From assembly GCA_902615425.1 (NCBI GenBank), contig CACMPD010000002.1, positions 62,001-126,000 of the forward strand: a stretch of 64,000 nt of DNA, in the 5' to 3' direction. Of the stretch, positions 34,541 to 61,100 are shown piece after piece. This stretch comes from an uncultured Pelagibacteraceae bacterium. GTDB taxonomy: Bacteria > Pseudomonadota > Alphaproteobacteria > Pelagibacterales > Pelagibacteraceae. The notes beneath the pieces were generated by a model. That model was not told the origin of the DNA, did no database searches, and saw only the letters and a program-made list of their open reading frames with translations. The number at the start of each line of letters is the position of its first letter. Positions within the stretch are counted from its first letter, which is position 1. Both the position numbers and the translations under genes were made by a program.

Positions 34541-35221
34541 TTAAGATATTTTTGAAATTTCACCTTTTTCAAAAGAAATAATTTTATTGCAAATTTTTTT
34601 CAACCTTTCTGAATTGTGTGAAGCAATTAAAGTAATTTTTGATTTTGCAATTCTTTCAAAAATTAGTTGATCAACTTTATCTCTTAAATTTTGATCAGCC
34701 ACTCCAATCCATTCATCTAATAATAAAATATCACTCTCGATATGTAATGATGTAAAAAAAGCTAATCTAAATCTCATTCCCGTAGAGTAAGTTTTTATTG
34801 GTAAATAAAGATAATCACCAAGCTCAGTTTCATTTTTGATTTTTTCTAATAAATTATTTCTTTGATTTTTTTTTATACCCTCAATAATTAATCTAAATTC
34901 TATATTATCAACACCAGTAAGTTCTGGATTAAACCCAAAATTGATATCGATCATAGAACTTATTGAACCAGAAATTTCAATCTTTCCTGAAGAAGGTTGA
35001 AAAATCCCTGCAACCAGTTTTAATAATGAGGTTTTTCCAGACCCGTTAGCTCCAGAGAGTCCGTAAATGCCATTATCAAATTTTAGATTTATATTTCTTA
35101 AGGCCTCTATATAGTTATTTTTAATATTTGAACCAAAAATACCATTAACTATACTTCTTCTCAAAGATAAGTTTTTATTTGAAATGGGATAATTTAAACT
35201 AACATTTTCTAATATAATCAT
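34541..35221 (-). CDS. Polysaccharide export ABC transporter ATP-binding protein (KpsT / short Wzt type)
   Basis: 226 residues. Walker A GLSGANGSGKTSLLK, an ABC signature variant TYSTGMRFRLAF, and Walker B ILLLDEWIGVAD are those of the capsule/O-antigen/teichoic-acid exporters (CPSE/LPSE). There is no C-terminal carbohydrate-binding domain as found in long Wzt, so chain-end recognition is not built in. It overlaps the permease gene by 4 nt. It exports a lipid-linked glycan made by the following 22-kb cluster. Confidence 0.9.
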   Translation of the reverse strand: MIILENVSLNYPISNKNLSLRRSIVNGIFGSNIKNNYIEALRNINLKFDNGIYGLSGANGSGKTSLLKLVAGIFQPSSGKIEISGSISSMIDINFGFNPELTGVDNIEFRLIIEGIKKNQRNNLLEKIKNETELGDYLYLPIKTYSTGMRFRLAFFTSLHIESDILLLDEWIGVADQNLRDKVDQLIFERIAKSKITLIASHNSERLKKICNKIISFEKGEISKIS

Positions 35222-36021
35222 AAATACAATATAGTTTTATTTTCCAAATGTTTATTTATTTTTAGATTAATTAAAAAAATTGTTAACATTATTATCAATG
35301 AGATAAAAAAACTTTGATAAAACTTTTCATCAAAATCATTCATTAATGGGTTTCTAAATAAAACTAAAAAATGATAAAAAGGATTAAAAATAAGAATTTT
35401 TTGAATTTTAGCTGAAACCATATTTTCACTCCATATAATTGGAGTTGCAAAAAAGAAAGCATAAACAAGATTTTCTACAATTTTTTTGACATCTTTATAT
35501 ATCGCTGACATGATTGTAATTAGATAACCTATCATAATTAAGTTGATTAATACTATAAGTAATCCAAGAAGAGCGAAGAACAAACTAAATTGAAATTTAA
35601 AATCAGAAAAAAATAATAATACGAAAATTATAGGGAAGCTATGTAAAAAAATAATAAAGTTTGTGTAAATATTTTCACATACAAAATTTTTAATATCTAT
35701 TTTTTTTTCATTCAATAAGTTTTTCTTATCTTCTAATAATGATGTAAATCCATTTAAACAACTTGAAATAAATAACCATAAAAATACTGATATAGATAAT
35801 CTATAAACAAAATTATTAAAATTATCAGGATTTAAAAATAAAAAGTAACTTAACGATAATACTGAAATTAGAAAAATGCTATTAATTACGTTCCAGAACG
35901 GTCCTAAAATAGTATCTTTATATTTTAAAACTATATTTTTATGTGAATAAAAAATCCATATATCTGAATAAGAAAAGCACTTAAAAAATTCTTTTAAAAA
36001 ATTCATTATAATAATATACAC
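35218..36021 (-). CDS. Polysaccharide export ABC-2 permease (KpsM / Wzm type)
   Basis: 267 residues, six membrane segments. The N-terminal YKDTILGPFWNVINSIF (about 30-46) is typical of the LPSE/CPSE permease family. Partner of the ATPase gene it overlaps. It starts 15 bp from the divergent glycosyltransferase gene, so the export pair and the biosynthetic genes share a promoter region. Confidence 0.9.
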   Translation of the reverse strand: MYIIIMNFLKEFFKCFSYSDIWIFYSHKNIVLKYKDTILGPFWNVINSIFLISVLSLSYFLFLNPDNFNNFVYRLSISVFLWLFISSCLNGFTSLLEDKKNLLNEKKIDIKNFVCENIYTNFIIFLHSFPIIFVLLFFSDFKFQFSLFFALLGLLIVLINLIMIGYLITIMSAIYKDVKKIVENLVYAFFFATPIIWSENMVSAKIQKILIFNPFYHFLVLFRNPLMNDFDEKFYQSFFISLIIMLTIFLINLKINKHLENKTILYL

Positions 36022-38637: not shown

Positions 38638-39651
38638 ATGAAAAAAATTTTAGTAACCGGTGGTTTAGGCTTTATTGGTAGTAATTTAATAAGATTATTA
38701 TTATTAAAAAAATTTAAAGTCGTAAATATAGATAATAAGAGTTATTCATCAAGTAGTTACAATACAAAAAATTTTAAAGACAATAAAAATTATCAATTTA
38801 TAAAAGCAGACATTAATAATAAAAAAAAATTAATACAGATATTTAAAAAATTCAAACCGGATGGAATTTTTAATTTAGCTGCATCGACTCATGTTGATAG
38901 ATCTATCGAAAATCAAGTTAGTTTTATCAATAGTAATATTTTGGGTACATATAATCTTTTAGAAGCGCTAAGAGATTATTCTAAAATAAACAAAAATTAC
39001 AAATTAATTCATGTTTCAACAGATGAAATTTACGGCGATATATTAAAAGGAAGTGTTAAAGAAAATTTTCAAGTGAAACCTAGTTCTCCTTATGCAGCAA
39101 CTAAAGCTGCTGCAAATCATTTAGTAAGTTCTTATATTAAAACATTTAAATTAAAAGCGCTAATCGTAAATCCTACAAATAATTATGGTCCGAATCAACA
39201 TCCCGAGAAACTTATCCCAAAAATTATATATAATATCTTAAATAATAAAAGATTACCTATTTATGGAAAAGGCAAAAACAAAAGAGAATGGATTTTTGTT
39301 TCAGATAATTGTGAAGCATTATTTGCAGTTTATAAAAATGGAATAATTGGTGAGTCATATAATATTGGTTCAGGAAAAATAATTTCAAATTTAGCAATTT
39401 GTAAATTATTAATGAGTATTGCAAAAAAAAATAAAGTTTTAGGACAAAATGTCAAAATCCAATTTATAAAAGATAGACCTGGACATGATTTTAGATATTC
39501 AGTTAATAGCTCAAAAATTAAAAAAAAGATTAAATGGAAACCAAAAGTAAAATTATTGGAGGGTCTTGAATATACTTTTAATTGGTATGTAGAGAATAAA
39601 AATTATTTTAATTCGTTTAATAAAAAAGATTTCACAAGAAGAATTGGATGA
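38638..39651 (+). CDS. rfbB: dTDP-glucose 4,6-dehydratase
   Basis: 337 residues. Extended SDR: TGGLGFIGSN at 7-16, HVSTDEIYGD with the Thr-Asp-Glu catalytic trio, and the YAATKAA motif (Tyr and Lys of YxxxK). NNYGPNQHPEKLIP matches RmlB. It converts dTDP-glucose to dTDP-4-keto-6-deoxyglucose. It overlaps rfbA by 4 nt and starts the block rfbB-rfbA-wecE. Confidence 0.93.
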   Translation: MKKILVTGGLGFIGSNLIRLLLLKKFKVVNIDNKSYSSSSYNTKNFKDNKNYQFIKADINNKKKLIQIFKKFKPDGIFNLAASTHVDRSIENQVSFINSNILGTYNLLEALRDYSKINKNYKLIHVSTDEIYGDILKGSVKENFQVKPSSPYAATKAAANHLVSSYIKTFKLKALIVNPTNNYGPNQHPEKLIPKIIYNILNNKRLPIYGKGKNKREWIFVSDNCEALFAVYKNGIIGESYNIGSGKIISNLAICKLLMSIAKKNKVLGQNVKIQFIKDRPGHDFRYSVNSSKIKKKIKWKPKVKLLEGLEYTFNWYVENKNYFNSFNKKDFTRRIG

Positions 39652-40421
39652 AGACAAGAGGTATTATTATGCTTGGAGGTAGAGGAATTAGATTAAAACC
39701 AATGACAGAATATATATCTAAACACTTATTACCTGTTTATAATAAGCCCATGGTTTATTACTCCCTGTCATCTTTAATTTACTCAAATATAAGAGAAATT
39801 TTAATTATATGTAATAAGCATGATTTAAACATTTACAAAAAATTACTCAAACCAATAGCTAAAAAATATAAAATCAAATTTAGTTTTGAGTTCCAAAAAA
39901 AAATAGGTGGAGGAATAGCTGAAAGTTTACTAATAGGAGCAAAGTTCATAAATGGTTGTAAAAAAGTTGTATTGATTTTGGGTGACAATTTTTTTTATGG
40001 AAGAGAATTTCCAAGATTATTGAAAAAAACAATTTCAAAAAAAAACAAATCTTTTGTATTTTTATCACCAGTTAAAAATGTTAAGAACTTTGGTATTGCA
40101 TACTTGGATAAAAGAAAAAAATTAAAAAAAATAATTGAAAAGCCCTCTAATTCCAAAAGTAATTTGGCTGTTACAGGACTCTACGTTTATTCCACCAGCC
40201 ATATAAACAATTTGCATAAACTCAAAAGATCTAGAAGAGGTGAACTAGAAATAACAAGTTTCAATAACAGATTATTAAAAAATGATAAACTAGACTACAT
40301 AAATTTAGGTCAAGGAATTACTTGGTTTGATCTTGGAAGTTTTAATAATTTATATCAATGCTCTGAATTTGTAAAAGTTGTTGAAAATAGACAAGGAAAA
40401 AAAATTTCTGGTTTACTTTGA
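39648..40421 (+). CDS. rfbA: Glucose-1-phosphate thymidylyltransferase (short form)
   Basis: 257 residues against about 290 in RmlA; the C-terminal helical part is reduced, as in the short RmlA-like group. Nucleotide-binding loop GGRGIRLKPMT and KHLLPVYNKPMVYY are conserved; GDNFFYGREF supplies the metal-binding Asp. It makes dTDP-glucose from dTTP and glucose-1-phosphate. The altered first Gly-loop residues (LGGRGIR, not AGGSGTR) are worth noting. Overlaps rfbB and wecE by 4 nt each. Confidence 0.9.
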   Translation: MKTRGIIMLGGRGIRLKPMTEYISKHLLPVYNKPMVYYSLSSLIYSNIREILIICNKHDLNIYKKLLKPIAKKYKIKFSFEFQKKIGGGIAESLLIGAKFINGCKKVVLILGDNFFYGREFPRLLKKTISKKNKSFVFLSPVKNVKNFGIAYLDKRKKLKKIIEKPSNSKSNLAVTGLYVYSTSHINNLHKLKRSRRGELEITSFNNRLLKNDKLDYINLGQGITWFDLGSFNNLYQCSEFVKVVENRQGKKISGLL

Positions 40422-41563
40422 TGAAAAATAAGAGAATAACATTTAATAAGCCTTTTTTTTTTGAAAATGAATTTAAAAAAAATTTATCAATCTTAAAACA
40501 AAAATCCCATTTTTCTTCATTAGGTTATTTTACTGAAAAATGTAAAAACTGGCTATCGCTAAACTTAAATTGTAAAAATGTTTTTCTTGTTCATTCTTGT
40601 ACTGCGGCCCTTGAGATGACTGCTTTATTGTTAAATATTAAAAAAGGTGATGAGATTATTATGCCCTCATACGCTTTTGTATCTTCAGCAAATGCTTTTG
40701 TGCTTAGAGGTGGAAAGCCTGTTTTTGTAGATACGGGCTCAAATAATTGCAACATAGATCCAAACAAGGTTGAGGCAGCAATAACAAAAAGAACCAAGGC
40801 AATATTAGTAGTTCATTATTCAGGTTTTAGTTGCGATTTGGATAAAATTTTAAAAATTGCAAAAAAACATAATTTATTTGTTATAGAGGATGCTGCCCAA
40901 TCAATTTTATCAACATACAAAAATAAAAAATTAGGCTCTATAGGAGATATTGCCACTATTTCTTTTCACGAAACTAAAAATATTCATTGTGGTCAAGGTG
41001 GGGCGTTATTAGTTAATAATGAACGATTTGTGAAAAGAGCAAACATATTACTTGAGAAAGGAACTAATAGATATCTTCACAGAAATAATTTAATAAAAAA
41101 ATACACATGGATTGATCTTGGCTCTTCATTTGCTTTAAATGAAATAAGCGCTGCATATTTGTATACACAATTGGTTAAAGCAAAAGAGATAACTAATCAG
41201 AGAAAAAGAATATATAATTACTATAATAAAAAATTTGAAATTCTTGAAAAAAAAGGTTTTCTTTTAAGACCGCAAATACCGAGACATTCAAAAACTAACT
41301 ATCATATTTATTATATTCTGATTTTAAAAAAAAAAAGAGATGATTTAATAAGTTATCTTAAAAGTAAAAAAATTTCAGCATTATTTCACTACATACCTCT
41401 GCATAAATCAAAGTATGGAAAACAAAATGGAATTGCTAAATTCAGTATGAAAAACACTGATTGGATTTCAAATAGATTATTAAGACTCCCCCTTCATCAT
41501 CGAATAAAAAAAAAAGATATAAATAGAATATGTAATGAAATTCTTTTATTTTGTAAAAGATAA
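40418..41563 (+). CDS. wecE: dTDP-4-amino-4,6-dideoxygalactose transaminase
   Basis: 381 residues. DegT/DnrJ/EryC1 aminotransferase; PLP Lys187 in SFHETKN and Asp158 in EDAAQS. Long stretches track E. coli WecE/RffA: SCTAALEMTALLL, EIIMPSYAFVS, ANAFVLRGGKPVFVD, and the C-terminal ALFHYIPLH. It transaminates dTDP-4-keto-6-deoxyglucose with glutamate to dTDP-Fuc4N. With rfbB and rfbA it forms a complete three-gene route. The product may be N-acylated by the formyltransferase at 52031-52768. Confidence 0.93.
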   Translation: MMKNKRITFNKPFFFENEFKKNLSILKQKSHFSSLGYFTEKCKNWLSLNLNCKNVFLVHSCTAALEMTALLLNIKKGDEIIMPSYAFVSSANAFVLRGGKPVFVDTGSNNCNIDPNKVEAAITKRTKAILVVHYSGFSCDLDKILKIAKKHNLFVIEDAAQSILSTYKNKKLGSIGDIATISFHETKNIHCGQGGALLVNNERFVKRANILLEKGTNRYLHRNNLIKKYTWIDLGSSFALNEISAAYLYTQLVKAKEITNQRKRIYNYYNKKFEILEKKGFLLRPQIPRHSKTNYHIYYILILKKKRDDLISYLKSKKISALFHYIPLHKSKYGKQNGIAKFSMKNTDWISNRLLRLPLHHRIKKKDINRICNEILLFCKR

Positions 41564-41672: not shown

Positions 41673-42446
41673 ATGACACAAAATTTAATGTATGATGAAA
41701 ATTTTCATAAAGAGTTAATAAAATTAGAAGATAATAACTTTTGGTTTATCTCTAGAAATAAAAGGATAGAACACATTTTAGATAAATATGTAAAAAGCCA
41801 ATTTGATAATTTTTTAGAAATTGGTTGTGGCACGGGGTATGTAACTAAAATGATTGCAAAAAAATTTCCTGATAAAAAGATATATGCCTCAGAATATTTA
41901 TTGTCAGGCTTAAATGAAGCAAAAGAAAGACTTAAAAATTTAAATAACGTTTCTCTTATTAGTTTAGACGCGAGGAAAATTCAGAGTAAAAATAAATATG
42001 ATATAATTGGTGCATTTGATGTTATCGAACATATATCTGAAGAAGATATTGTACTAAAAGAAATCAATAATAGTTTAAAAAAAAATGGAAAGTTTATATT
42101 TTCAGTCCCACAACATCAATTTTTATGGAGTATATATGATGACTTAGGGTTTCATAAAAGAAGATATTCAAGAAAATACTTATTACAAAAGTTAAAAGAA
42201 AATAATTTTGAAATTATCTACATAAATTCATTTAATTCACTTTTATTACCAGCAATGTACGTTTCAAGATTTTTAAACAAATTTAAAAAAAAAGAAGAAT
42301 TTGATATAATGGATGAATTAAAAATAAGTAATTTTTTAAATGGTGTTTTAAAAAAAATTTTAAATTTTGAATATTTTTTGTCTAAAATTGGTATTAATTT
42401 TCGATTTGGGGGTTCTTTAATTGGTATCGCAAAAAAAAAAACCTAA
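41673..42446 (+). CDS. Class I SAM-dependent methyltransferase, first gene of the phosphoramidate operon
   Basis: 257 residues. Motif I FLEIGCGTGYV at about 50-60, an acidic end of strand 2 (ASEYLL), and GAFDVIEHI. It starts a coupled operon (26-bp overlap with the next gene) that goes on to the MeOPN-like enzymes. In C. jejuni two methyltransferases of about this size, Cj1419 and Cj1420, lie in the same pathway, so this one and 47839-48645 may be their counterparts. Methylation of a sugar or lipid is the alternative. Confidence 0.75.
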   Translation: MTQNLMYDENFHKELIKLEDNNFWFISRNKRIEHILDKYVKSQFDNFLEIGCGTGYVTKMIAKKFPDKKIYASEYLLSGLNEAKERLKNLNNVSLISLDARKIQSKNKYDIIGAFDVIEHISEEDIVLKEINNSLKKNGKFIFSVPQHQFLWSIYDDLGFHKRRYSRKYLLQKLKENNFEIIYINSFNSLLLPAMYVSRFLNKFKKKEEFDIMDELKISNFLNGVLKKILNFEYFLSKIGINFRFGGSLIGIAKKKT

Positions 42447-43302
42447 TTTTATAATTATTGGATCTTGTGCAGGTGGAACATCTTTTTTATCCTCTATTTT
42501 AGCTTATCATAAAGAAATTTATCTTCCGAAAATTAAAAGACCAGAACCTAATTTTTTTCATTATACACATAAATATAAAAAAGGAATAAGTTCTTATCTA
42601 GATGAATGGTTTTCGGACGTTAAAGATGAGAAAGCAATAGGAGAAAGATCTTCTTTACTTTTAACAAGCAAATTAGCTCCAAAAAGACTTTACAAACATT
42701 TTCCAAAAATTAAAATTATAGCAACTCTTCGTAATCCAATTGAAAGAGCGTGGGCAAATTATAGATTTACATGCTTAGAGGGCTTAGAAACTTATAAATT
42801 TCTTAACTCTTTGAAAAAAAAATATAAATACAAGAATAAATTTTGGAGTGAAGTTGCTCCCAACAACTATATTCAAAGAAGTCTTTATGCGGATAGTATT
42901 AAAGCATTTATCAGACTATTTGGGAAAAAAAAAATATTGTTAATAAAATCAGAAGATTTGAATAACAATACGAAAAAAGAATTAAATAAAATTTGTGAAT
43001 TTTTAAATGTTTCTAAAAATTTTAAATTTCGTAGACCTCCTACATTTACGAGCCCAAATGTAAAATATTTAAAAGTGCAGAAAAAATTAAGAAAAAAATA
43101 TAATGAAAAATTTTATAAAATTATTGAACAAATAAGAGAAAAAAGACTTAATAGTAAAAAATTTAATGATATTAAAAAAAATATATCTTTTGACAAAATG
43201 AATATGGATAATAATTCTAGAATTTATCTAAATAAAATTCTATTTAAAGATATTAAAAAACTTTCCAAATATGTTAACTTTGAAACAAAGGATTGGATAT
43301 GA
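42421..43302 (+). CDS. Sulfotransferase-fold protein with altered donor-site residues; candidate phosphoramidate transferase
   Basis: 293 residues from a TTG at 42421 (GGGGG lies upstream; no ATG fits). The heparan-sulfate-sulfotransferase fold is recognisable: the 5'-phosphosulfate loop region IIIGSCAGGTSFL at 11-23, GERSSLL at 74-80, and the 3'-phosphate region RNPIERAWANY at 104-114. The donor Lys expected in the loop (as in IGxxKxGT) is Ala17, and the 3'-phosphate Ser is Ala112. It overlaps the methyltransferase by 26 bp and the next GT2 gene by 4 nt, in one operon with glutamine-kinase-like and CDP-phosphoramidate genes. A role in transferring a group other than sulfate is inferred, not shown. 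Confidence 0.72.
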   Translation: MVSQKKKPNFIIIGSCAGGTSFLSSILAYHKEIYLPKIKRPEPNFFHYTHKYKKGISSYLDEWFSDVKDEKAIGERSSLLLTSKLAPKRLYKHFPKIKIIATLRNPIERAWANYRFTCLEGLETYKFLNSLKKKYKYKNKFWSEVAPNNYIQRSLYADSIKAFIRLFGKKKILLIKSEDLNNNTKKELNKICEFLNVSKNFKFRRPPTFTSPNVKYLKVQKKLRKKYNEKFYKIIEQIREKRLNSKKFNDIKKNISFDKMNMDNNSRIYLNKILFKDIKKLSKYVNFETKDWI

Positions 43303-44231
43303 AAAATAAAAAAAAAGATATAGCTATAATATTACCAGTTTTCAATAATGAAAAAACTATATCTAAGATAACTCAAATAATCATAAAAGCTTGCAACAAA
43401 ATTAAAAAAAAATATGAAATAATATTTGTTGATGATGGAAGTAAAGACAACAGTTGGTCGAAAATTTGTGAACAAAATTCGATTAACAAAAATATTAAAG
43501 GTATTAATCTTATGAGTAATTTTGGTCAGCATAATGCCATTATTGCAGGTCTTGAGCATTCAAATTCAAGATATAATGTAGTTATGGATTGTGATTTACA
43601 AGATAATCCAAAATACATATGCAATTTATATTCTGAAATTATTAAAAAAAAAAACGATGTAGTTGCAATAGAATTTGAAAAAAGACACGAGAATTTTTTT
43701 CAAAGAATTTGTTCTAACATTTTTTGGAAGACAATTTCGATTTTGTCAAAAAAAAAATTTAATAATAAAATTGGAAATTTTATGATTTTTTCTGAAAAAA
43801 TCAAAAATGAAATTTTAAAATTCAAAGAACAAGACAAATTGCTTAGTGGAGTATTGCTTTTAATGGGCTGTAAATTTGGTACTATTAGGTTTCCAAGAGA
43901 GGCAAGAGGATATGGTAAGTCTAGTTATACTTTTGTAAAAAAAATAATTTTAGCGCTGAATTTAATAATAAACTATTCAAATATTATAATTAAATATTTT
44001 ATATTTTTTAATTTTATTATTTTTCTTTTTAGTTTTTTTGCTATTTTCTACATATTATACTTATCATTTTTTGATTATATTCAAGTCTTTGGATGGGCTG
44101 GAATAATGGTAAGTATTTTCTCAATATTAAATATTCAATCATTATTTTTAATAATCATTTCTTATTATGTGCATAAACTTCATGTAGAGTCTAAGAATCG
44201 GCCTAACTACTTAATCAGGAAAATAATTTAA
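43299..44231 (+). CDS. GT2 polyprenyl-phosphate glycosyltransferase (GtrB/ArnC type)
   Basis: 310 residues from the ATG at 43299 (ATGA overlap with the preceding stop; a TTG at 43293 is less likely). GT-A domain 1-215 with IILPVFNNEKTI, VDDGSKDNS, and MDCDLQDNP as the DxD segment; two membrane segments at about 230-295. This is the GtrB/ArnC layout, which loads a sugar on undecaprenyl phosphate. Its presence suggests a sugar added to the glycan on the periplasmic side. Confidence 0.85.
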   Translation: MKNKKKDIAIILPVFNNEKTISKITQIIIKACNKIKKKYEIIFVDDGSKDNSWSKICEQNSINKNIKGINLMSNFGQHNAIIAGLEHSNSRYNVVMDCDLQDNPKYICNLYSEIIKKKNDVVAIEFEKRHENFFQRICSNIFWKTISILSKKKFNNKIGNFMIFSEKIKNEILKFKEQDKLLSGVLLLMGCKFGTIRFPREARGYGKSSYTFVKKIILALNLIINYSNIIIKYFIFFNFIIFLFSFFAIFYILYLSFFDYIQVFGWAGIMVSIFSILNIQSLFLIIISYYVHKLHVESKNRPNYLIRKII

Positions 44232-44232
44232 T

Positions 44233-46527
44233 TTGAAACTTCCAACTAAAATAATTAATTTAGAGAAGGCAAAATTAATATGCAATGTTCCAAAATTTTT
44301 ATATTTTAGTTTTCAAGATTATAAAAATAATCAAAATTTAGTAGTAAAAAATATACAAAAAAAATTAAAAAAAAAAATAATTATTAGATCGGCCTCTTTT
44401 AATGAGGATGGTGAATATAGCAATGCTGGAAAATATTTATCTTTACCAAATATAAAGACGACAAATTTTACTAAGATTAAAAATAGTATTGAAAAGGTTT
44501 TCAAAAGTTATGGTCCCCATAAAAAAAATCAATTCATTTTAGTTCAAGAATATATTCAAAATGCTGAAAGTGTTGGTGTTATCTTTACAGCTGATCCTAA
44601 GAACGGATCGCCATTCAGAACAATAAATTTTAATGAATCTAATTCTACCGACTTAATAACCTCTGGAAAATCTAATGGTCAAATTATATATTTTTTTAAA
44701 GATATCCCAAAATCAAAAATTAAGATTGATAAGAAAATTAAAAATTTTAACAATATTATTAAAAAATTAGAGAAAAAGTTTTCAAATAATTTTTTAGACA
44801 TAGAATTTATAATTTACCAAAAAAAAATTTATATTTTGCAGGTTAGAAAACTAAAAATATACTCTAATAGTAAAATAAATTTTAAAAAATCATTACGAGA
44901 TCTTGAAAAAAAGATTTTAAAAATGACCTGTGAAAATTCTCACCTAATCGGAAAAAAAAGATTTTTTTCAACTATGACCGATTGGAACCCAGCAGAAATA
45001 ATTGGACTAAAACCAAAGCCATTAGCCCTTTCTCTTTATAAAAGTTTAATAACAGATGAAATCTGGTCAGAGAGTAGAGTGAGTTTAGGCTATAAAGATA
45101 TAACAAAAATGCCTTTATTATACTCATTTTTAGGAACGCCTTATATTGATCTAAAAACAGATATAAATTCATTTTTAATTCCAGATCTGTCAAATGAAGT
45201 ACAAAAAAAATTATTAAAATTTTATTTGAAAAAATTTAAACAGAAACCATATTTCTATTACGATAAAATAGAAAGTGAGTTGGTATTAAATTGTATTTCG
45301 TTAGATACTAAAAAATATGAAAAAATTATTCAAAAATCTTCTCTTACAAAAAAAGAGTTAAATATTGTTATAAAAAAATATAAAGAGTTAACAATTTCTT
45401 TAATTTTGAGATTAGATGAAAATATAAAAAAATATAATCATGGTAAATTGTTATTCAAAAAAATAAAAAGTACCCAAAACTCTATAATTAATAAAATATA
45501 TCTTTTACATAATATATGCAAAAACTACGGTACTTTACCTTTTGCAAACTTAGCAAGGATGGCATTTATAGCAATCGAGTTTCTCAATTCTTTTGTGAGT
45601 TTGAAAATTATATCAAATGATGAAAAAAAAATATTTCTGGAAACTATCAAATCTGTATCGTTTGAAATGAGTAAAGATTTATCTAAATCGAAGTTTTTAT
45701 TTTTAAAAAAATACGGTCATTTAAGACCGAATACTTATGAAATTTCTAATCAATGTTATAATGACAATTTTAAGAATTACTTTCGAAATTCCCAGAATTT
45801 AGTTAAAAGACCAAAAAAATTTAAATTTACAACAAAGCAAATAAATAAAATTAATTATCACTTAAACAAAAAAAAGTTTGAAAATATTGATGCAAAATTA
45901 ATTATTAATTTTATTGAAAATTCAATATATCAACGTGAAAAATCAAAATTTTTTTTTACTGAAATAATAAATGAGATTTTTAATCAGCTAAAAATTTTAG
46001 CTAGAGGAATAAAATTAAAAGAGAGTGATTTGCAATATTTAGATATTTATAAAATTTTAGAATTATATGAACAGTTTGATCATGAAGTTATAGTAAAAGA
46101 CTTGAAAAATAATATAAATAGAAACAGAGATATGTATGTATTTAACCAAAATTTTAATTTACCGAATGTAATATTAGATAAAAATGATTTATACATTTAT
46201 CATGAAAAACAGGCATCACCTACATTTATAACTGATAAAGAAGTTTTATCGGAATTTATCAATTTAAATAGAATGAAAAAAAATTTAAATTTAAATGATA
46301 AAATAATATGTATCGAAAATGCTGATCCAGGATATGATTTTATTTTTAGTTGTAGAATTAAAGGTCTAATAACAGCATTTGGTGGTCCAAATTCGCATAT
46401 GAGTATTAGGTGCAATGAATTTTCCGTACCTGCTGCAATAGGTATAGGTGAAAAAAAGTTTCAACAATTATTGAAGAAAAATAGGTTGTACCTTAATTGT
46501 AAAAAAAGAATATTGAATAGTTTATAA
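44233..46527 (+). CDS. L-glutamine kinase-like enzyme (ATP-grasp plus PEP-utilising swivel domain; Cj1418 type)
   Basis: 764 residues from a TTG. The N-terminal third is an ATP-grasp resembling pyruvate phosphate dikinase (IIRSASFNEDGEYSNAGKY, VGVIFTADP), and the C-terminus is the PEP-mobile domain with His722 in TAFGGPNSHMS. No PEP-binding TIM barrel is present. This layout and length match Cj1418 of C. jejuni, which phosphorylates the amide nitrogen of L-glutamine using ATP, the first step to O-methyl phosphoramidate. Its neighbours are the next pathway enzymes (46527 and 47108). A generic phosphoenolpyruvate synthase is unlikely, as the barrel is missing. Confidence 0.8.
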   Translation: MKLPTKIINLEKAKLICNVPKFLYFSFQDYKNNQNLVVKNIQKKLKKKIIIRSASFNEDGEYSNAGKYLSLPNIKTTNFTKIKNSIEKVFKSYGPHKKNQFILVQEYIQNAESVGVIFTADPKNGSPFRTINFNESNSTDLITSGKSNGQIIYFFKDIPKSKIKIDKKIKNFNNIIKKLEKKFSNNFLDIEFIIYQKKIYILQVRKLKIYSNSKINFKKSLRDLEKKILKMTCENSHLIGKKRFFSTMTDWNPAEIIGLKPKPLALSLYKSLITDEIWSESRVSLGYKDITKMPLLYSFLGTPYIDLKTDINSFLIPDLSNEVQKKLLKFYLKKFKQKPYFYYDKIESELVLNCISLDTKKYEKIIQKSSLTKKELNIVIKKYKELTISLILRLDENIKKYNHGKLLFKKIKSTQNSIINKIYLLHNICKNYGTLPFANLARMAFIAIEFLNSFVSLKIISNDEKKIFLETIKSVSFEMSKDLSKSKFLFLKKYGHLRPNTYEISNQCYNDNFKNYFRNSQNLVKRPKKFKFTTKQINKINYHLNKKKFENIDAKLIINFIENSIYQREKSKFFFTEIINEIFNQLKILARGIKLKESDLQYLDIYKILELYEQFDHEVIVKDLKNNINRNRDMYVFNQNFNLPNVILDKNDLYIYHEKQASPTFITDKEVLSEFINLNRMKKNLNLNDKIICIENADPGYDFIFSCRIKGLITAFGGPNSHMSIRCNEFSVPAAIGIGEKKFQQLLKKNRLYLNCKKRILNSL

Positions 46528-47111
46528 TGAAAACAATCGGTTTAATACCTTCGATTATAGAACATAGAAACTCAAATCATTTAACAGTTGATTATAAGCT
46601 GATAATTTTTATCGAAAAATGTTTTCCAAAACATCACCTAAAAATTTTAACTGGAGTCGAAAAAAAAAATAAATTGGATTATGTTATATCTATTGGTAGC
46701 AATGATATTTTAACAATAAAAAATACAAAGTCTAATAAACTGAGAAAAAAATTAGATGACTATTATTTCAGCTATTCTTTAAAAAAAGATATTCCTTTTA
46801 TAGGGATTTGTTATGGAGCTCAATATATTGCAAATTTTTTTAAATCAAAAATAATAAAAAAAAAGAACCATACTAAAAAAAAACACAAAATCTATTTTAA
46901 CAAATCCTCAAAAACTCTAAACGTAAATAGCTATCATGACTACTCAATTGTAAAATTAGGAAAAAAATTAAATGTGATTGCATATACAAAAGATGGTTCT
47001 ATCGAGGCTTTTCGTCATGAAAAAAAAAAAATTCTTGGAATAATGTGGCATCCCGAAAGATATAATCGAATAAAAAATTTTGATATCAAATTTATCAAAA
47101 AATATATATGA
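46527..47111 (+). CDS. Gamma-glutamyl-CDP-amidate hydrolase-like (class I GATase, Cj1417 type)
   Basis: 194 residues. Peptidase C26/GATase1 fold: SIGSNDIL at 55-62, nucleophile Cys95 in GICYGAQ, and His175 and Glu177 in MWHPER. Cj1417 of C. jejuni removes glutamate from gamma-glutamyl-CDP-amidate, leaving CDP-phosphoramidate. It overlaps the glutamine-kinase-like gene by one base and the cytidylyltransferase-like gene by 4 nt. A stand-alone hydrolase of another gamma-glutamyl compound would be the alternative, but the operon argues for this pathway. Confidence 0.8.
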   Translation: MKTIGLIPSIIEHRNSNHLTVDYKLIIFIEKCFPKHHLKILTGVEKKNKLDYVISIGSNDILTIKNTKSNKLRKKLDDYYFSYSLKKDIPFIGICYGAQYIANFFKSKIIKKKNHTKKKHKIYFNKSSKTLNVNSYHDYSIVKLGKKLNVIAYTKDGSIEAFRHEKKKILGIMWHPERYNRIKNFDIKFIKKYI

Positions 47112-47851
47112 ACTTTATAGTATTAGCATCAGGGAGAGGCTCGAGATTAAATATTTTAACCAAAAAAAAACCTAAGTGTCTGACAGAAATTAAAAATAAA
47201 AAAACTCTGCTAGATTTTATTGTTGAAAACTTTAATAATAACGATAATAAAATAATATCAATAGGCTATAAATCAAATTTAATCACAAAACATCTTTCAG
47301 ATAAAAGTGTGATTTTTGTCAAAAACAAAAATTTTCTTAGTACAAATATGACAGAGTCTCTAATGCTATGTAAAAAAAAATTAAAAAAAAAAGATTTAAT
47401 TATTGTGTATAGTGATATCTATTTTGACCAAGTGATTATAAAAAAAATTAGAAAATTAAAAGGTAATATAATTGCATTAAATTCCAATTGGTTGAATTCA
47501 TGGAAACAGAGGTATTTGTCTTTAAAGAAAATAAAAGAAGATGCTGAAAATTGTGTTGTTTCAAAAGGAAAAATTAAAAAAATTGGACATAAAATTGGAA
47601 AAAAATTACCAAAATACCAGTTTATGGGAATTATAAAAATTGAATATAAAACTTTTAGTAAACTTGAAAATTTTTATAAAAGATTAAAAAATAAAAAAAT
47701 TAGCATGACACACTTTTTAAACGAATCAATAAAATTTAATATAACTAATTATAAATATTTTGACTGTAAAAATTATTGGTATGAGGTAGATAATATTTCA
47801 GATTTGAATTATTTAAAAAAAATGTTTAATCAACATAGCTATCTTAACTGA
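47108..47851 (+). CDS. CTP:phosphoglutamine cytidylyltransferase-like (Cj1416 type)
   Basis: 247 residues. LicC-like nucleotidyltransferase: LASGRGSRLNILTKKKPKCL at 6-25, then TNMTESLMLC and VYSDIYFD (metal Asp). This family adds CMP to small phosphorylated compounds; Cj1416 does so to L-glutamine phosphate. It overlaps the hydrolase gene by 4 nt and its 3' end overlaps the convergent methyltransferase by 13 bp. A phosphocholine or aminoethylphosphonate cytidylyltransferase is the alternative; no choline or phosphonate gene is nearby. Confidence 0.8.
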   Translation: MNFIVLASGRGSRLNILTKKKPKCLTEIKNKKTLLDFIVENFNNNDNKIISIGYKSNLITKHLSDKSVIFVKNKNFLSTNMTESLMLCKKKLKKKDLIIVYSDIYFDQVIIKKIRKLKGNIIALNSNWLNSWKQRYLSLKKIKEDAENCVVSKGKIKKIGHKIGKKLPKYQFMGIIKIEYKTFSKLENFYKRLKNKKISMTHFLNESIKFNITNYKYFDCKNYWYEVDNISDLNYLKKMFNQHSYLN

Positions 47852-48645
47852 GCTAGATAAGCTACATTATCATAAGGCACCTCAACAAAATCAGTTTTCA
47901 AAAAATTTACGTAATTTGTTATAGATTTAATAATTTGTTTAAAGTGACTATTATTTTGACAGTTTCTTTTTAACGTTCCGTGTGAATTCCAAGCTTTTAT
48001 AAAATCTTTTTTATCAATTTTAATAGAAAAACTTTGTGTTATTTTTTCAACATTTTTAAATGACTTTTCTTTTTTTATTATGGTTCTATAATCAAATCTC
48101 CTATCTCCGTAATTATAATTTGGTAAATGAGATTTTATAATTTTCTCTATTGCTCTTTGATGTACGTTGTTTAAGTTTCTGTGATTCCACATACAACAAA
48201 AGTAACCTTTTTTTATTAATATTCTTCGAATTTCTGTAAAGGCTTTTTTATAATTAACAGTATTAAAAGATGACCCAAAAAAAGTACAGTAAACACTATT
48301 AGATTTTAATGTAGTATTTTCACCTGTGCCGCTTGACCAATTAACATTTGAAAATTTTTTTGTATTTTTTTCTCCATAAAATCTCATGTAACTATTTGGC
48401 TCAATAGAATTTACAATCATCTTATTTTCACAGAGTAATTTTGTTAATTTCCCAGTGCCTGCTCCAATATCAGCTACGGGGTAATTTTCTTTGCATTTAA
48501 TCTTTTTTAAAATTTTTTTAATTAGTTTTTTTGAATAGTCTGCTCTTAGATCATAGTGTTTAGCTAATGTAGTGTAGTCCCAATTTGTTTTTATGTTTTT
48601 CTGTTTCATCCTATTAGCATTAATTCCTAATGAATAATTTTTCAA
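47839..48645 (-). CDS. Class I SAM-dependent methyltransferase (Cj1419/Cj1420-like position)
   Basis: 268 residues. Motif I VADIGAGTGKLTKLL near residue 57-70, SIEPNSYM for strand 2, and the SSGTGENTTLKSNSV post-motif stretch place it in the Methyltransf_11/25 group. It lies 5 bp after the CDP-phosphoramidate-kinase-like gene on the same strand. The setting suggests the O-methylation step of phosphoramidate, by analogy with the two C. jejuni methyltransferases, but substrate cannot be read from sequence. Confidence 0.75.
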   Translation of the reverse strand: MKNYSLGINANRMKQKNIKTNWDYTTLAKHYDLRADYSKKLIKKILKKIKCKENYPVADIGAGTGKLTKLLCENKMIVNSIEPNSYMRFYGEKNTKKFSNVNWSSGTGENTTLKSNSVYCTFFGSSFNTVNYKKAFTEIRRILIKKGYFCCMWNHRNLNNVHQRAIEKIIKSHLPNYNYGDRRFDYRTIIKKEKSFKNVEKITQSFSIKIDKKDFIKAWNSHGTLKRNCQNNSHFKQIIKSITNYVNFLKTDFVEVPYDNVAYLAQLR

Positions 48646-48650
48646 TAAAA

Positions 48651-49076
48651 TTAAATACTAAAGATATTTTTAGAAAAGTTTTCAAAAGTTTCACATTTAA
48701 ATTTTGGTTGTTTAATATGTATTCCAACAATATTTTTTTTATTTGCTAATTTTCGATTAATTTTATTTTTTGAACCCAGAACATTAACAACTCTGATTTT
48801 GTTCTTTTTTGCTTTTAGAAAATGATTTAAGTCTAGAAAAACACTTGAAATAATTGGATAATATCCATTTTTGATTGCAATTTTAGCCAATCCAAGTTTT
48901 CTCTTATTTGATTTGATTCTATCAGATTTGCTGTATCCAAGATCAAAACTAATAAATCTTCGAACTTCATCACCATCAATAATAAATGGGTTTTTTATTT
49001 TTTTTGAAATTTTTTTAGATAGATAAGTTTTACCAGAGCCCGACAATCCAAATAGCCACAACCCTTTATAAATCAT
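48651..49076 (-). CDS. CDP-phosphoramidate kinase-like protein (APS-kinase fold, Cj1415 type)
   Basis: 141 residues. P-loop GLSGSGKT at 10-17, IDGDEVRRF, and DLGYSKSDRIKSNKR follow the APS-kinase pattern; the C-terminus is shorter than in CysC (about 170-200). Cj1415 of C. jejuni has this fold but phosphorylates the 3'-OH of cytidine diphosphoramidate. SAR11 bacteria are known to lack assimilatory sulfate reduction, so an ordinary APS kinase would be out of place. It forms an operon with the methyltransferase at 47839. Truncation at the 3' end may be real or reflect a compact variant. Confidence 0.75.
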   Translation of the reverse strand: MIYKGLWLFGLSGSGKTYLSKKISKKIKNPFIIDGDEVRRFISFDLGYSKSDRIKSNKRKLGLAKIAIKNGYYPIISSVFLDLNHFLKAKKNKIRVVNVLGSKNKINRKLANKKNIVGIHIKQPKFKCETFENFSKNIFSI

Positions 49077-49141: not shown

Positions 49142-50866
49142 CTAGTTATTAAAATTTAATTTAAATGAATATGCATTATTGAATTTTAAATTTATCTCCT
49201 CTATATTTTTTTTATCTAACTCACAGTTTTGTACTATTTTGAAAATTTTTTCTTTAGCATCTTTTGAACTAGAAAAACCCCGAGCATAAATTATGGAATT
49301 TCCAAATAATTTAAACCAAGAAATTTGTCCACATATGTCATAGGGTTTATAAAACCTTGAATAATCACTATACATAGTATCAATCAATATATTATTATTG
49401 TTGCCACTAAATATGAAATCTTTTTTTTCATCTAAAATCCAAATTCTATACTTATCATCATATTGAGTTATATCTTTTATTTCTTTTGAAAGTTGACTCA
49501 ATATTTTAGTTTTATCAAATTTAAGAATTGGGTTATTTATTTGTCCGATGTACCAAAGAAATGAGGAAAGAACAATCATGTAGACAATTAAACAATAACT
49601 TATTAAACTAAGGAGCTTTCTTATTTTTAAATTATTCTTAAATAAATTATTTAAAAAAATTAATATCGCTAAAACACCTATTAAATTATATATATTTTTT
49701 GCATTCTCATAATTATTAAATTTCATTAAAATTATTACTAATAAAGAAATAATTATAGTAACTAAATATACATAAACTTTTTGTGAGAATGTTAAATTAA
49801 TAATTAGTGTAGTTGAAAAAATAATAATAGTTATAAATGGTAGTATAAATGAATGACCACCATATAAAAGGTCGCCTCCAAGCATAAATTTATTATAACT
49901 AATAATTTGGGGTAAATAGAATACTAATAATAATGAAGTTATAATTATAGTATAATTTTCAATATTATTTTTTAATTGAGTATTATTGTTTTTCATTGAA
50001 ATTAAATTGAAAAAAATAACCATTACAACAAAAAATAGTGTTCCCATTGGAAGATATATTTTAAAGTACTCTCTTTGACCCCAAACATCATGGATTAAAA
50101 GCCCTGCTGTCTTTAGGAGGGTATATAAGATTATATTTGTATCGTACCCGATAAATTTACCCATTATGAAGTCTATTATTAGTATTATTATTATCGCTTT
50201 AATAACTTCTAAATTTAATTTCATAAATTTGTTTTTAAGTTGCGATAACTTTATCAAGTAAATTATATAACTTGTATAAATGAAGAGCGCCGCATAAATG
50301 TGACCTTGCCAACTTATAAAAATTATACCTAAAAGAAAAAAATTTAAAAAAATTTTGTTAAAATCTAAAATTTTTGACTGAAAATTTTCAATCATATTTT
50401 TTAAAACTAATAAATACAATGGTATCGCAATGTAGCTTGAATGCATTGATACCATTTGTTGAGTTACATATTTGCTAAACAAAAATAAAAAAAAACATAA
50501 CAAATAACCACTCAAGTTTTCATTTAAGATTAAATTTGTTATTTTTAATAAGAAAATGACCGAAAAAAACATTGTTAAATGAAATAAAATTAAAAAAGTT
50601 AAATTTGCGTCTACAAATAATTGTAATAAAAAAATTGGAATTATAGTTGCCCATCTTCTTAAATAATATGTGTCCTGAAAATGTTCACTAAAATATTCTA
50701 AATTTAGTGCCGTTCCAAAATAGAACCATTTATCAATTTCACCTAAACCTATCTGAATCCACCAAACTGGGTAAAAATAATTTTTTAAAATTATTAAAAT
50801 TAATGAAAATAGAATGAATATCCTATATTTTTTACCAAAAAAAATTTCACTCAATAAACTTTTCAT
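49142..50866 (-). CDS. Multispanning membrane protein, unknown (possible polymerase or GT-C transferase)
   Basis: 574 residues, about twelve hydrophobic segments from 15 to 450, then a soluble tail of about 120 residues with RIWILDEKKDF and a Cys pair. No family recognised. The topology resembles the protein at 22116-23585 and polysaccharide polymerases or GT-C glycosyltransferases. In this island it could polymerise or decorate the glycan, but nothing in the sequence proves it. It begins 75 bp from the divergent aminotransferase. Confidence 0.6.
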   Translation of the reverse strand: MKSLLSEIFFGKKYRIFILFSLILIILKNYFYPVWWIQIGLGEIDKWFYFGTALNLEYFSEHFQDTYYLRRWATIIPIFLLQLFVDANLTFLILFHLTMFFSVIFLLKITNLILNENLSGYLLCFFLFLFSKYVTQQMVSMHSSYIAIPLYLLVLKNMIENFQSKILDFNKIFLNFFLLGIIFISWQGHIYAALFIYTSYIIYLIKLSQLKNKFMKLNLEVIKAIIIILIIDFIMGKFIGYDTNIILYTLLKTAGLLIHDVWGQREYFKIYLPMGTLFFVVMVIFFNLISMKNNNTQLKNNIENYTIIITSLLLVFYLPQIISYNKFMLGGDLLYGGHSFILPFITIIIFSTTLIINLTFSQKVYVYLVTIIISLLVIILMKFNNYENAKNIYNLIGVLAILIFLNNLFKNNLKIRKLLSLISYCLIVYMIVLSSFLWYIGQINNPILKFDKTKILSQLSKEIKDITQYDDKYRIWILDEKKDFIFSGNNNNILIDTMYSDYSRFYKPYDICGQISWFKLFGNSIIYARGFSSSKDAKEKIFKIVQNCELDKKNIEEINLKFNNAYSFKLNFNN

Positions 50867-57305: not shown

Positions 57306-58169
57306 ATGAGATTTATATTAGTACTAATTTTTTCAGCATTAATATCTTTTGCAGCAAATGCTATAAATATTGATCAAAAAAAAAAGGAGTTAAAAAAAAT
57401 TTATGAGGCAGGTGGCATATCAAAAGTAGAATATGAAAAAGCTATTGAGTTCTTAGAAAACGAAACTGAAAAAGTAAAAAAAGTTAAGAAAAAAACATTT
57501 TCTTTAAAAAATCAAAAGAAAAAAAAATCTAATTTTAATTTATTAAAAAAAGAAGATGATTTAGAGGAAATAACTTCGGAGAAAATTGAGGAATTAGGAC
57601 AACCAATAAAATTTAACGACACTTATTTTACTGAGGGAATGATAAAAAAATTTAAAGGATGTAATAATAGTTTTAAATGCAGAGGACAAAAAGCTGGAAG
57701 AGCTTTATACAAAACTTTTTCAGCAAGCAAAAGTTTTGGTCAAAAGAATCCTGGTAAAATGATTAAAGCCATGGCTATGTACGAAGTTTTCTATGCCCAA
57801 AAATTATGGTACGCAAGAAAATCCATTGAAAGATACAATGCAAATGATTATTCAAAAGGGAAAATACTTTATACCAAAAAAAAAGATGAAAAAGAAATAA
57901 GATCATTATTTGGGATAAATAAAGGCAGAAAAGGTATGCGAGAAGCTCTTGGTATGAATTTAGATACCCCAGCGAAAGAGGCGATTAAAAAATTTTGGTT
58001 GTTAGGTGAATTTTTAGATCTCGGTACTGGTGTTAAAAATGACAAATTAGACAAAGATTTAAAAGAAAGACAAGAATTATTAGAAGCTTATAAGCTACAA
58101 ATAGCTAATCTAAAAAAAAAACTTCAGGATGATATAGATGAGGAGAAAAATGAAGAGTCAGTTGAATAA
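57306..58169 (+). CDS. Secreted SHOCT-like hypothetical protein
   Basis: 287 residues. Signal peptide 1-19 with FAANA cleavage-type end. Next is a SHOCT-like helix pair (KKELKKIYEAGGISKVEYEKAIEFL... at about 26-50), a Lys-rich linker, and a helical region with two nearby Cys (CNNSFKCR). The C-terminal 40 residues form a coiled coil (KLQDDIDEEKNEE). The function is unknown. The gene overlaps the giant coiled-coil gene by 20 bp, so the two are probably one operon with partner products. Confidence 0.65.
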   Translation: MRFILVLIFSALISFAANAINIDQKKKELKKIYEAGGISKVEYEKAIEFLENETEKVKKVKKKTFSLKNQKKKKSNFNLLKKEDDLEEITSEKIEELGQPIKFNDTYFTEGMIKKFKGCNNSFKCRGQKAGRALYKTFSASKSFGQKNPGKMIKAMAMYEVFYAQKLWYARKSIERYNANDYSKGKILYTKKKDEKEIRSLFGINKGRKGMREALGMNLDTPAKEAIKKFWLLGEFLDLGTGVKNDKLDKDLKERQELLEAYKLQIANLKKKLQDDIDEEKNEESVE

Positions 58170-61100
58170 AATTTTAAAAATCATAATTATAATTTCATTA
58201 TTTTCTTTTTCTAAATCCTATTCAATTGAAAACGTGAGTGAGTTTACAGATGCAATTGATGAAGTAAGAGAAGAGTTTAACAATATTTCTGAAGCTTCAA
58301 CAGAACAATCAAAAATTATTGACGAAGCATTAAAAGAAATAGACAAAGCAACAGAATATGTTCAAGAAGCTATCGATAACAATAAGCCTGAAGACGCAAT
58401 AATAACTTTAGAGTTTATAGAAAAATCTTTAACTGATGTCGAGAGTATTATTCCACAAGAATTTGGATCTGACATGTCTAATATTGATACTTCTGTAATT
58501 GCCAAAGAGGATATGGATGTTGTTAATGAAGTAACTGCCCAAATGAAAACTGCTAAAGAAGAAAAATTAAAAGATTTCATGTCTGATTTGATTGATCTTA
58601 ATCAAAAAGGTATTGATACAATAACAATTTCCGAAAATTTAAATAGTCTTGGGATTGATACAATAGAATTAGATTTAAATTTAGATGAAAAAAAGAAAAT
58701 GGAAACATGGACCAAAGAGGAATGGGCAAATTCTTATAAAGGTTCTGTTTTAACATCAGATGGTTCTGAAGTAATTACTGATCAAGAGATAAATACTAAG
58801 GTAGGTGATTTAGAGCAAAAATTACAAGCCAATACTGCAGCAATATTAGACAAAAGATCTTCACTTACAGAATTACAAACAAAAATTGATCCTTTATCAG
58901 GACAAATCACAGAACTGAAAACACAAAAAACTAATCTCTTAGCCAAATATAATGAGGAGATTTTAAAACAATCTTCAACAATTTTATCTGATGAAGAAAT
59001 CAGTGAAAGTAAAAAGTTGGCAGATCAATTTAATAGTCAATTAAGTAATCTAACTGATCAAATAAAAACTGCAGAACAACAATCAAATTCACTTCAAGAG
59101 CAAGTACAAAGCTTAAATTTAGAATTAGCTAATGAAATTGCTAATAAAACACAACTACAAACTAATATTAATGAATTAAACAATCAACTTTCTGCAAATC
59201 AAAATATTTTATCTAAAAAAACATTAGAGCTTGATCAGCTTAAAAATACAAATTTAGATACAAAGATATCCTCTTTAAATGAAAAACTCCAGTCAGCTTC
59301 TCGTGAGAGAGATTTCATTCAAACAGATTTTGAAAGATCAATTGACTTAGAAGTGGATGCAATTGAAAGATATCACACAGCGTTAGGTAATATTGATAGT
59401 AAAAATTTTGATGATGAGGTGGAATTTTCAATTAGAGAAGTGGGTGTTATTATGGATGCTGATCCGAGAAAACATAGAGCGTTCGAGTTAGAAAAATATG
59501 CAACTTATGCAGGATTTTCTGATGATTATATCCAAAAAGGTATTAAAGCAATAAATAATGATGATTGGGGACGACAAAGAGAACTTTATAACGAAGTAGC
59601 AAAAAAACTTTCTAAAAATCCAGAATGGACTGTTGATATTCCATCCAACGCTGAACTAAATGTGATGATTGAAGAGGATAAAGCAATACAAGCTGCAGCT
59701 CTTGCTTCGATGCAGATTAATGAAATTAATTCAGCATGGGATAAAAAAATAAATGAACAAGTAAAAGATATCCAACCGTTAGCTGCTTTAAATCTATTAA
59801 CCATTAAATCAGCTGCTACCTGGGAAGGTATGAGAGAACATAGTTTTCTTGTTGAGGAAACAAATAAATTACTAGCAGGCCAAAATTTGGAAGCGAAGTT
59901 TGAAGCTTATGAAAAAGCCCAGCAAGCATATGATGAATACATGAATAAGGACTGGAGATCAGTTAATTGGCAGGGGTATAGTTTAAACAAAGCTTTAGAT
60001 CTTCAAACAAAAAAAAATGAGCTTTTTTTTGAAGCTAAGGATATTGAATGGGATGCAGAAAGACAAGCAAGAGAAAATCTTTATGCTGCTGTAGAGTCAG
60101 CTAAATCAAAATATAATGAAATTATTTCTCAAGAAAATCCTGAGCTTAAATCTGTTAAAGAAAAAGTTACAAAGATATTAAAAGATGTTCCAACTTTTGC
60201 AGATAGTGCAGAAAATCTTGCAGGACTTGATCCTGCTACTTTAAGAGCAAGATTAATTGATATAACATTAGGGAATAACAATGAATCAGAAGCATTAGAA
60301 GCAGCAAGAAATGCTATTGCAGAAATAGGTGAGGCACCTGTAAGTGAATACATGACAGGACCTTATTGGGAAATGACTAATGTTAAGGCTGCCGCAATAG
60401 TAAGATCAAAAAAATATGATTGGGTAGATGATTATGAATATATTAACGCATATTATGAAGAATCCTTAAATCTTAATTCATCACAAAGAGAATACGTTGA
60501 GGGTGAATTGAAAGGATTATTAGGCCAGAATAATATTAAATTACAAACACTTGAAAGTAAAATTTCTGATTTATCTAATGAGTTAAATTTAACTAAAGAG
60601 GAAAGTCAAAATTTAACAACTGAAATATCTCGTTTAGAAAATGAATTGTCTTCACTTAAAAATTCAGAAATTGAAATTCAAAACCAAATCAGTGATTTAT
60701 CAAATCAATTTAGTTCTAAAGAAAATTTAATTGTTGAAAAAACTCAAAACTTAGCTTCACTTCAAGAACAATTAAACCCCTTAAATGATAAAATGAATGA
60801 ACTTGAAGGTCAAAGAGCTGAATTAGATGCTAAACTCAATACTCAATTAGCTACTATTGCAAATCAAATTGAAAGTCAGGGTCAAGCAAATAATAAAGCA
60901 AATGCATTAAAGGCTCAATTTGAAAGTCAAATAGCACAATTAGATGGACAATTAAAAAATTATGAAAACCAAAGTCTTGAAATCAATAGTCAATTAGCTT
61001 CTCTTACAACTGAATTAAGTACTTTAGAAACTGAGACACCAGAAATAGCAAATCAAATTGAAAGTTTGAATCAGGATCTTGAAAACTTCATTAATATTAA

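Follow-up and report, generated by a model that had tools for sequence, protein, structure and literature searches.

A stretch of 64,000 nucleotides from an uncultured Pelagibacteraceae bacterium (contig CACMPD010000002.1, forward-strand positions 62,001 to 126,000; its whole length is called the window here) carries a compact gene cassette at window positions 41673–49076. A preliminary description, made from the sequence letters, had taken this cassette for a probable complete pathway of O-methyl phosphoramidate (MeOPN) capsule modification as known from Campylobacter jejuni. The eight open reading frames that it had listed were recovered with the same coordinates and strands, and Pfam and NCBIfam searches bore out their folds:

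41673–42446, + strand: class I S-adenosylmethionine (SAM) methyltransferase (MT1), matched by generic families; role uncertain, not clearly Cj1420
42421–43302, + strand: sulfotransferase-fold protein (PF00685, 4e-14), proposed phosphoramidoyl transferase
43293–44231, + strand: family 2 glycosyltransferase (GT2) of the ArnC/GtrB/PgfS type (NF047588, 135 bits; NF007986, 118 bits; both below cut-off)
44233–46527, + strand: predicted L-glutamine kinase, Cj1418 homologue by homology and family score; ATP-grasp and phosphoenolpyruvate (PEP)-mobile (phospho-His swivel) domains
46527–47111, + strand: predicted gamma-glutamyl-CDP-amidate hydrolase, Cj1417 homologue, class I glutamine amidotransferase (GATase); best family NF045546
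47108–47851, + strand: predicted CTP:phosphoglutamine cytidylyltransferase, Cj1416 homologue by homology and alignment A7; nucleoside triphosphate transferase
47839–48645, − strand: Cj1419-type SAM methyltransferase by homology to Cj1419, probable phosphoramidate O-methylation
48651–49076, − strand: predicted CDP-phosphoramidate kinase, Cj1415 homologue by homology and motifs; shortened adenosine 5'-phosphosulfate (APS)-kinase fold

The six plus-strand genes overlap or abut (gaps of −26, −10, +1, −1 and −4 nt), and the two minus-strand genes converge on them. Kinase, GATase and cytidylyltransferase follow each other in the C. jejuni order. This arrangement is not by chance, because almost every other locus fetched from the order Pelagibacterales (SAR11-type bacteria), and most loci from other phyla, show the triad again. 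As C. jejuni reference we used operon L078, found in a GTDB genome scan with the kinase alignment A1, and compared the window with it by BLASTP. L078 encodes, in this order, a DUF2972 protein, Cj1420, Cj1419, Cj1418, Cj1417, Cj1416 and Cj1415, with names assigned by gene order and fold. Homology was full-length to Cj1418 and Cj1416, covered most of Cj1417 and Cj1419 and was partial to Cj1415. This supports the proposed MeOPN-type gene set, more clearly for the Cj1418, Cj1416 and Cj1419 homologues than for those of Cj1417 and Cj1415.

The kinase matched Cj1418 (34% identity, 775 aa, 1e-130) and scored 686 bits with NF004508 (PRK05849; cut-off 501), compared with 35 bits for the best PEP synthase family. 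Pfam found the PPDK_N ATP-grasp and the PEP mobile domain, without a TIM-barrel domain. A catalytic-type histidine, His722, lies within GGPNSHM, of which GG-NSHM is invariant in the kinase alignment. For the GATase, the best family was NF045546 (gamma-glutamyl-CDP-amidate hydrolase) with 127 bits, which falls short of the cut-off (250); the next best family reached 51 bits. It showed up to 44% identity to Campylobacter proteins (1e-26 to 1e-32; 1e-27 for L078 and 1e-31 for another C. jejuni locus), and its triad Cys95/His175/Glu177 is intact and invariant in alignment A6. The cytidylyltransferase was nearer to Cj1416 (33%, 253 aa, 2e-27, 98 bits) than to LicC (PDB 1jyk, 26 bits). Catalytic residues were conserved across the core enzymes, in the cytidylyltransferase according to alignment A7.

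On the minus strand, the 47839–48645 methyltransferase matched Cj1419 (41%, 208 aa, 2e-47), and the APS-kinase-like protein matched Cj1415 (31% over 78 aa, 2e-8). The latter keeps the Walker A, DGD-R and VGI motifs but is shortened; it is 39–49% identical to kinase-adjacent proteins of genomes G307, G324 and G373, and its apsK score of 46 bits is far below the cut-off of 139. Both cassette methyltransferases had been likened to Cj1419/Cj1420, which stands for the minus-strand protein and is not supported for that at 41673–42446, as it matched Cj1420 only generically (3e-4).

We consider it highly probable that the cassette serves phosphoramidate decoration of the Campylobacter MeOPN kind within a SAR11-type surface-glycan island. 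It would be a variant with the same core chemistry and with another candidate transferase and sugar setting. Going by homology and synteny with the characterised C. jejuni enzymes, 44233–46527 would act first, as a Cj1418-type L-glutamine kinase, and 47108–47851 would join phosphoglutamine to CTP. The 46527–47111 product would then remove glutamate, giving CDP-phosphoramidate, and 48651–49076(−) would phosphorylate the ribose 3'-OH to a donor resembling 3'-phosphoadenosine-5'-phosphosulfate (PAPS). Sulfotransferase-fold 42421–43302 may move the phosphoramidate to a sugar, and 47839–48645(−) would add the methyl group, a step suggested by homology to Cj1419, whose own activity is presumed only. 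Sugar acceptor, methylation and ecological role we infer; protection from phages or grazers, as the preliminary description had it, is speculation and found no support. Phage protection cannot be assumed, because C. jejuni MeOPN is a receptor for several phages (PMC5808241). No earlier description from SAR11 was found in the literature searched; reviews know MeOPN only from Campylobacter (PMC6429109) and term the glutamine kinase C. jejuni-specific (PMC9561416).

With the C. jejuni system (Cj1415–Cj1420, transferases Cj1421/Cj1422) the window shares the kinase, the GATase, the cytidylyltransferase and their order, the APS-kinase-fold kinase, the Cj1419-type methyltransferase and the surface polysaccharide setting. 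In contrast to C. jejuni, the latter two enzymes are encoded on the opposite strand, there is one Cj1419/1420-type methyltransferase only, the APS-kinase-like protein is shortened, amino-sugar genes and an ArnC/GtrB-like GT2 lie nearby, and there is a sulfotransferase-fold protein where no DUF2972 transferase was found. DUF2972 (PF11186) was found neither in the window genome (G000, 80% complete) nor in 60 relatives; C. jejuni gave matches and control genomes gave none.

In C. jejuni, attachment of MeOPN requires Cj1421/1422 (PMC3907429), and a 2025 paper counts phosphoramidate decoration among the steps yet to be worked out (PMC12409886). The pathway product is 3'-phosphorylated CDP-phosphoramidate (PMC6429109). 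This product of the Cj1415 step resembles PAPS, and the sulfotransferase-fold protein 42421–43302, encoded two genes upstream of the kinase, is therefore a transferase candidate. Its assignment as phosphoramidoyl transferase is a new prediction, on which the sequence evidence leaves us evenly divided. Profile searches matched it to PDB 3rnl (5e-39) and NDST1 (4e-21). Its active-site loop reads GSCAGGTSFL where NDST1 has GPQKTGTTAL, i.e., the lysine of PAPS sulfotransferases is absent. Relatives occur in kinase operons of a Sphingobacteriaceae genome (L067, 42%) and of a planctomycete metagenome-assembled genome (MAG; L101, 34%); among 197 SAR11-type genomes, no other was seen to carry this type. 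At the NDST1-type lysine position the window, L067 and L101 proteins have A, A and P, whereas the 3'-phosphate motif RNP..RA is kept in all three (LRNPIERA in the window). Sulfotransferases sampled elsewhere in SAR11 genomes retain Lys/Arg.

The L067 and L101 operons share with the window this Lys-less subfamily, the APS-kinase-like protein, the kinase and the minus-strand methyltransferase (39–41% identity). L101 additionally carries relatives of MT1 (23%), GT2 (27%) and DegT, the window DegT being 43% identical to the gene after the L101 cytidylyltransferase. Unlike the window genome, their hosts are high-GC bacteria of other phyla, and a GATase was not detected in L101. We found no literature description of either operon. 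More generally, sulfotransferase-family genes crowd the edge of the core operon (29/188 at rank 1, 10/178 at rank 2 and 2/691 at rank 4 or more), as counted with models seeded from kinase-adjacent genes, and many kinase operons of other phyla have such edge genes; a sample of the assignments was confirmed with Pfam. On an Azospirillum ramasamyi plasmid (L207:2609-5125) a fusion gene lies directly upstream of a methyltransferase-kinase-GATase-cytidylyltransferase run; its product has a C-terminal APS-kinase domain and a weakly Sulfotransfer_2-like N-terminus (E 0.015).

For the C. jejuni DUF2972 protein, the top five PDB matches of a structure model (predicted local distance difference test score 80) were sulfotransferases bound to 3'-phosphoadenosine-5'-phosphate, at low template-modeling (TM) scores. 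The structural case for DUF2972 as a sulfotransferase relative is only suggestive.

Several results weigh against parts of the interpretation given so far. The GATase remains under the equivalog cut-off and the SAR11 kinases sit on a long branch, which leaves room for substrate drift. With 141 aa, the APS-kinase-like protein is also short. As to the transferase, the seeding of the counting models bears on the edge counts, a sulfotransferase-fold gene was detectable within 3 kb of the core in only 6/16 APS-kinase-bearing SAR11 loci, and co-presence of APS-kinase-like and sulfotransferase genes over all loci was not significant (p 0.11). The match of DUF2972 to sulfotransferase profiles is weak (E 1.4e-3 with 17% probability, and 1.7e-3; control 0.26), as is that in Foldseek (E 3e-3, TM ~0.3). 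Moreover, AprA is present in the window genome, and a route from sulfite via APS to PAPS might be possible with AprAB; cysC is listed for several SAR11 isolates (PMC5069961). Both points weaken the view that SAR11 is unable to make PAPS, although a 136-aa core protein picked up here with the apsK and PF01583 models carries NADEVR in place of DGD.

In a rival explanation, the APS-kinase-like and sulfotransferase-fold proteins would be a usual pair of PAPS kinase and sulfotransferase, fed by APS that AprAB makes from sulfite, while the core makes CDP-phosphoramidate and another enzyme, glycosyltransferase-fold or TagF-like, attaches the phosphoramidate. AprA in the window genome and the many further PF00685 proteins of these genomes speak for it, and five SAR11 loci without an APS-kinase-like gene have PF04464 (TagF-like) genes next to the core. 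CysC/NDST1-type PAPS systems share the folds of 48651–49076 and 42421–43302 and the 3'-phosphate-binding motif. We nevertheless think this explanation unlikely: the APS-kinase-like protein is far under the apsK cut-off and closest to other kinase-adjacent proteins, the sulfotransferase-fold protein lacks the active-site lysine and has its nearest operon relatives within kinase operons, and we noticed no PF04464 gene within the window cluster. In 33 kinase-bearing genomes neither ATP sulfurylase nor CysD scored above cut-off, again in contrast to CysC/NDST1-type systems. Of these SAR11-type genomes, 31/33 have PF00685 sulfotransferases, most of them several (G000:C4:24194-25006; L143–L172).

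A strict rule, by which APS-kinase-like genes go with sulfotransferases and loci without them with TagF-like genes, breaks down once all loci are counted (p 0.11 and 0.45). In the SAR11 subset, PF04464-like genes were seen in 0/16 APS-kinase-bearing and 5/15 APS-kinase-less loci (p 0.018), which we take as a hint only. These five loci, L032, L036, L042, L043 and L047, have the TagF-type gene near the cytidylyltransferase; the calls come from Pfam for L032, L036 (just below cut-off) and L042 and from a local model for L043 and L047. Their TagF-type protein could use CDP-phosphoramidate directly, and in loci without an APS-kinase-like enzyme generally, CDP-type transferases (TagF-like, CDP-alcohol) may do so. 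Another improbable alternative is that the cassette product is an unmethylated or altered phosphoramidate, or that it is moved to a lipid or nucleoside instead of a capsule-like glycan. Unmethylated phosphoramidates have been reported from Xanthomonas and Shewanella lipopolysaccharide (PMC3907429), no Cj1419-type methyltransferase was seen at other SAR11 loci, and on an Agrobacterium vitis plasmid (L213) the core is accompanied by a CDP-alcohol phosphatidyltransferase. The window cassette, however, does include this methyltransferase, and the sugar island around it has an exporter. In L213 the triad is followed by a LysE translocator and the phosphatidyltransferase, and this cassette perhaps leads to a small-molecule phosphoramidate. 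Another reading, in which the genes resemble PEP synthase, C26 peptidase and phosphocholine cytidylyltransferase and have unrelated functions, would agree with the general Pfam domains they share. The family scores, the direct homology and the conservation of the triad already contradict it, and we regard it as extremely improbable; because of the scores we rejected all three identities, which the preliminary description had named as what would refute it.

A survey of further SAR11 genomes found the kinase above the family cut-off in 27/397 genomes of the order (~7% of the sampled SAR11-type species). These kinases nearly always adjoin GATase and cytidylyltransferase, the triad being kept in ~30 SAR11-type loci. 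Among the other loci fetched from the order, about half have the APS-kinase-like gene; the Cj1419-type methyltransferase was seen at the window locus only, and in 247 genomes of the order no other homologue exceeded 54 bits/34%. In the kinase tree, 22/25 SAR11-type sequences including that of the window form one branch (96% Shimodaira-Hasegawa-like approximate likelihood ratio support), and the remaining three are placed elsewhere, two of them together. Contamination of the MAG is unlikely because the window kinase nests in this branch. A viral origin was also rejected: viral contigs gave no relative, and phages one unannotated 9.5-kb match. At L056, in the single-contig genome G158 of the same family, the reading frame of the kinase is split in two pieces. 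Another single-contig genome, G013, carries the triad together with an APS-kinase-like gene.

Beyond the order, the GTDB scan gave more than 500 kinase relatives. The operon occurs in ~14 other phyla. Outside the order it was found in Campylobacterota, Bacteroidota, Bacillota, Spirochaetota, Planctomycetota, Acidobacteriota, Nitrospinota, Verrucomicrobiota, Pseudomonadota and others, and also on plasmids. Plasmids of two marine Rhodobacterales genera, Pseudohalocynthiibacter (L208) and Roseovarius (L214), share an identical kinase protein accession, and recent cassette transfer is therefore indicated. We propose, tentatively and with rather more doubt than confidence, that phosphoramidate decoration is widespread in bacteria (~15 phyla) and that its transferases form one branch within the sulfotransferase superfamily, adapted to 3'-phospho-CDP-phosphoramidate instead of PAPS, with the Campylobacter DUF2972 domain in the same superfamily. 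As the cassette turns up in SAR11-type genomes and across many phyla, cell-surface P–N chemistry becomes a general question; it includes the most abundant ocean bacteria, whose surface islands are thought to shape encounters with phages and grazers. For the decoration step, the sulfotransferase-fold idea offers a concrete, testable enzyme family.

The genome holding the window has 1.06 Mb, compared with ~1.0–1.4 Mb for genomes of the order. The island around the cassette (34541–56962) has a GC content of 23%, the remaining window 29%. Size, AT-richness and the presence of AprA agree with SAR11. Family searches found an ABC-2 exporter, nucleotide-sugar dehydrogenases, RmlA/RmlB, two DegT aminotransferases and a formyltransferase, i.e., a surface-sugar content. 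Two sets of genes precede the cassette:

34541–36021, − strand: ABC-2 polysaccharide exporter pair, Wzt/TagH-like ATPase (NF050108, 170 bits, under cut-off) and permease
38638–41563, + strand: RmlB, RmlA and DegT by family scores, dTDP-4-amino-4,6-dideoxyhexose supply, probable sugar context

The exporter pair, with the permease called from sequence and position, lies ~6 kb upstream of the cassette. In the second set, the RmlB and dTDP-4-amino-4,6-dideoxygalactose transaminase families both exceed their own cut-offs. GT2 43293–44231 likely makes an undecaprenyl-phosphate-linked sugar. Adjoining the cassette, 49142–50866(−) encodes a 574-aa, apparently membrane-embedded protein without Pfam or NCBIfam match. 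Finally, 58138–62679(+), between the sugar island and a tRNA-Leu gene, encodes a 1513-aa protein with weak matches of coiled-coil type only.

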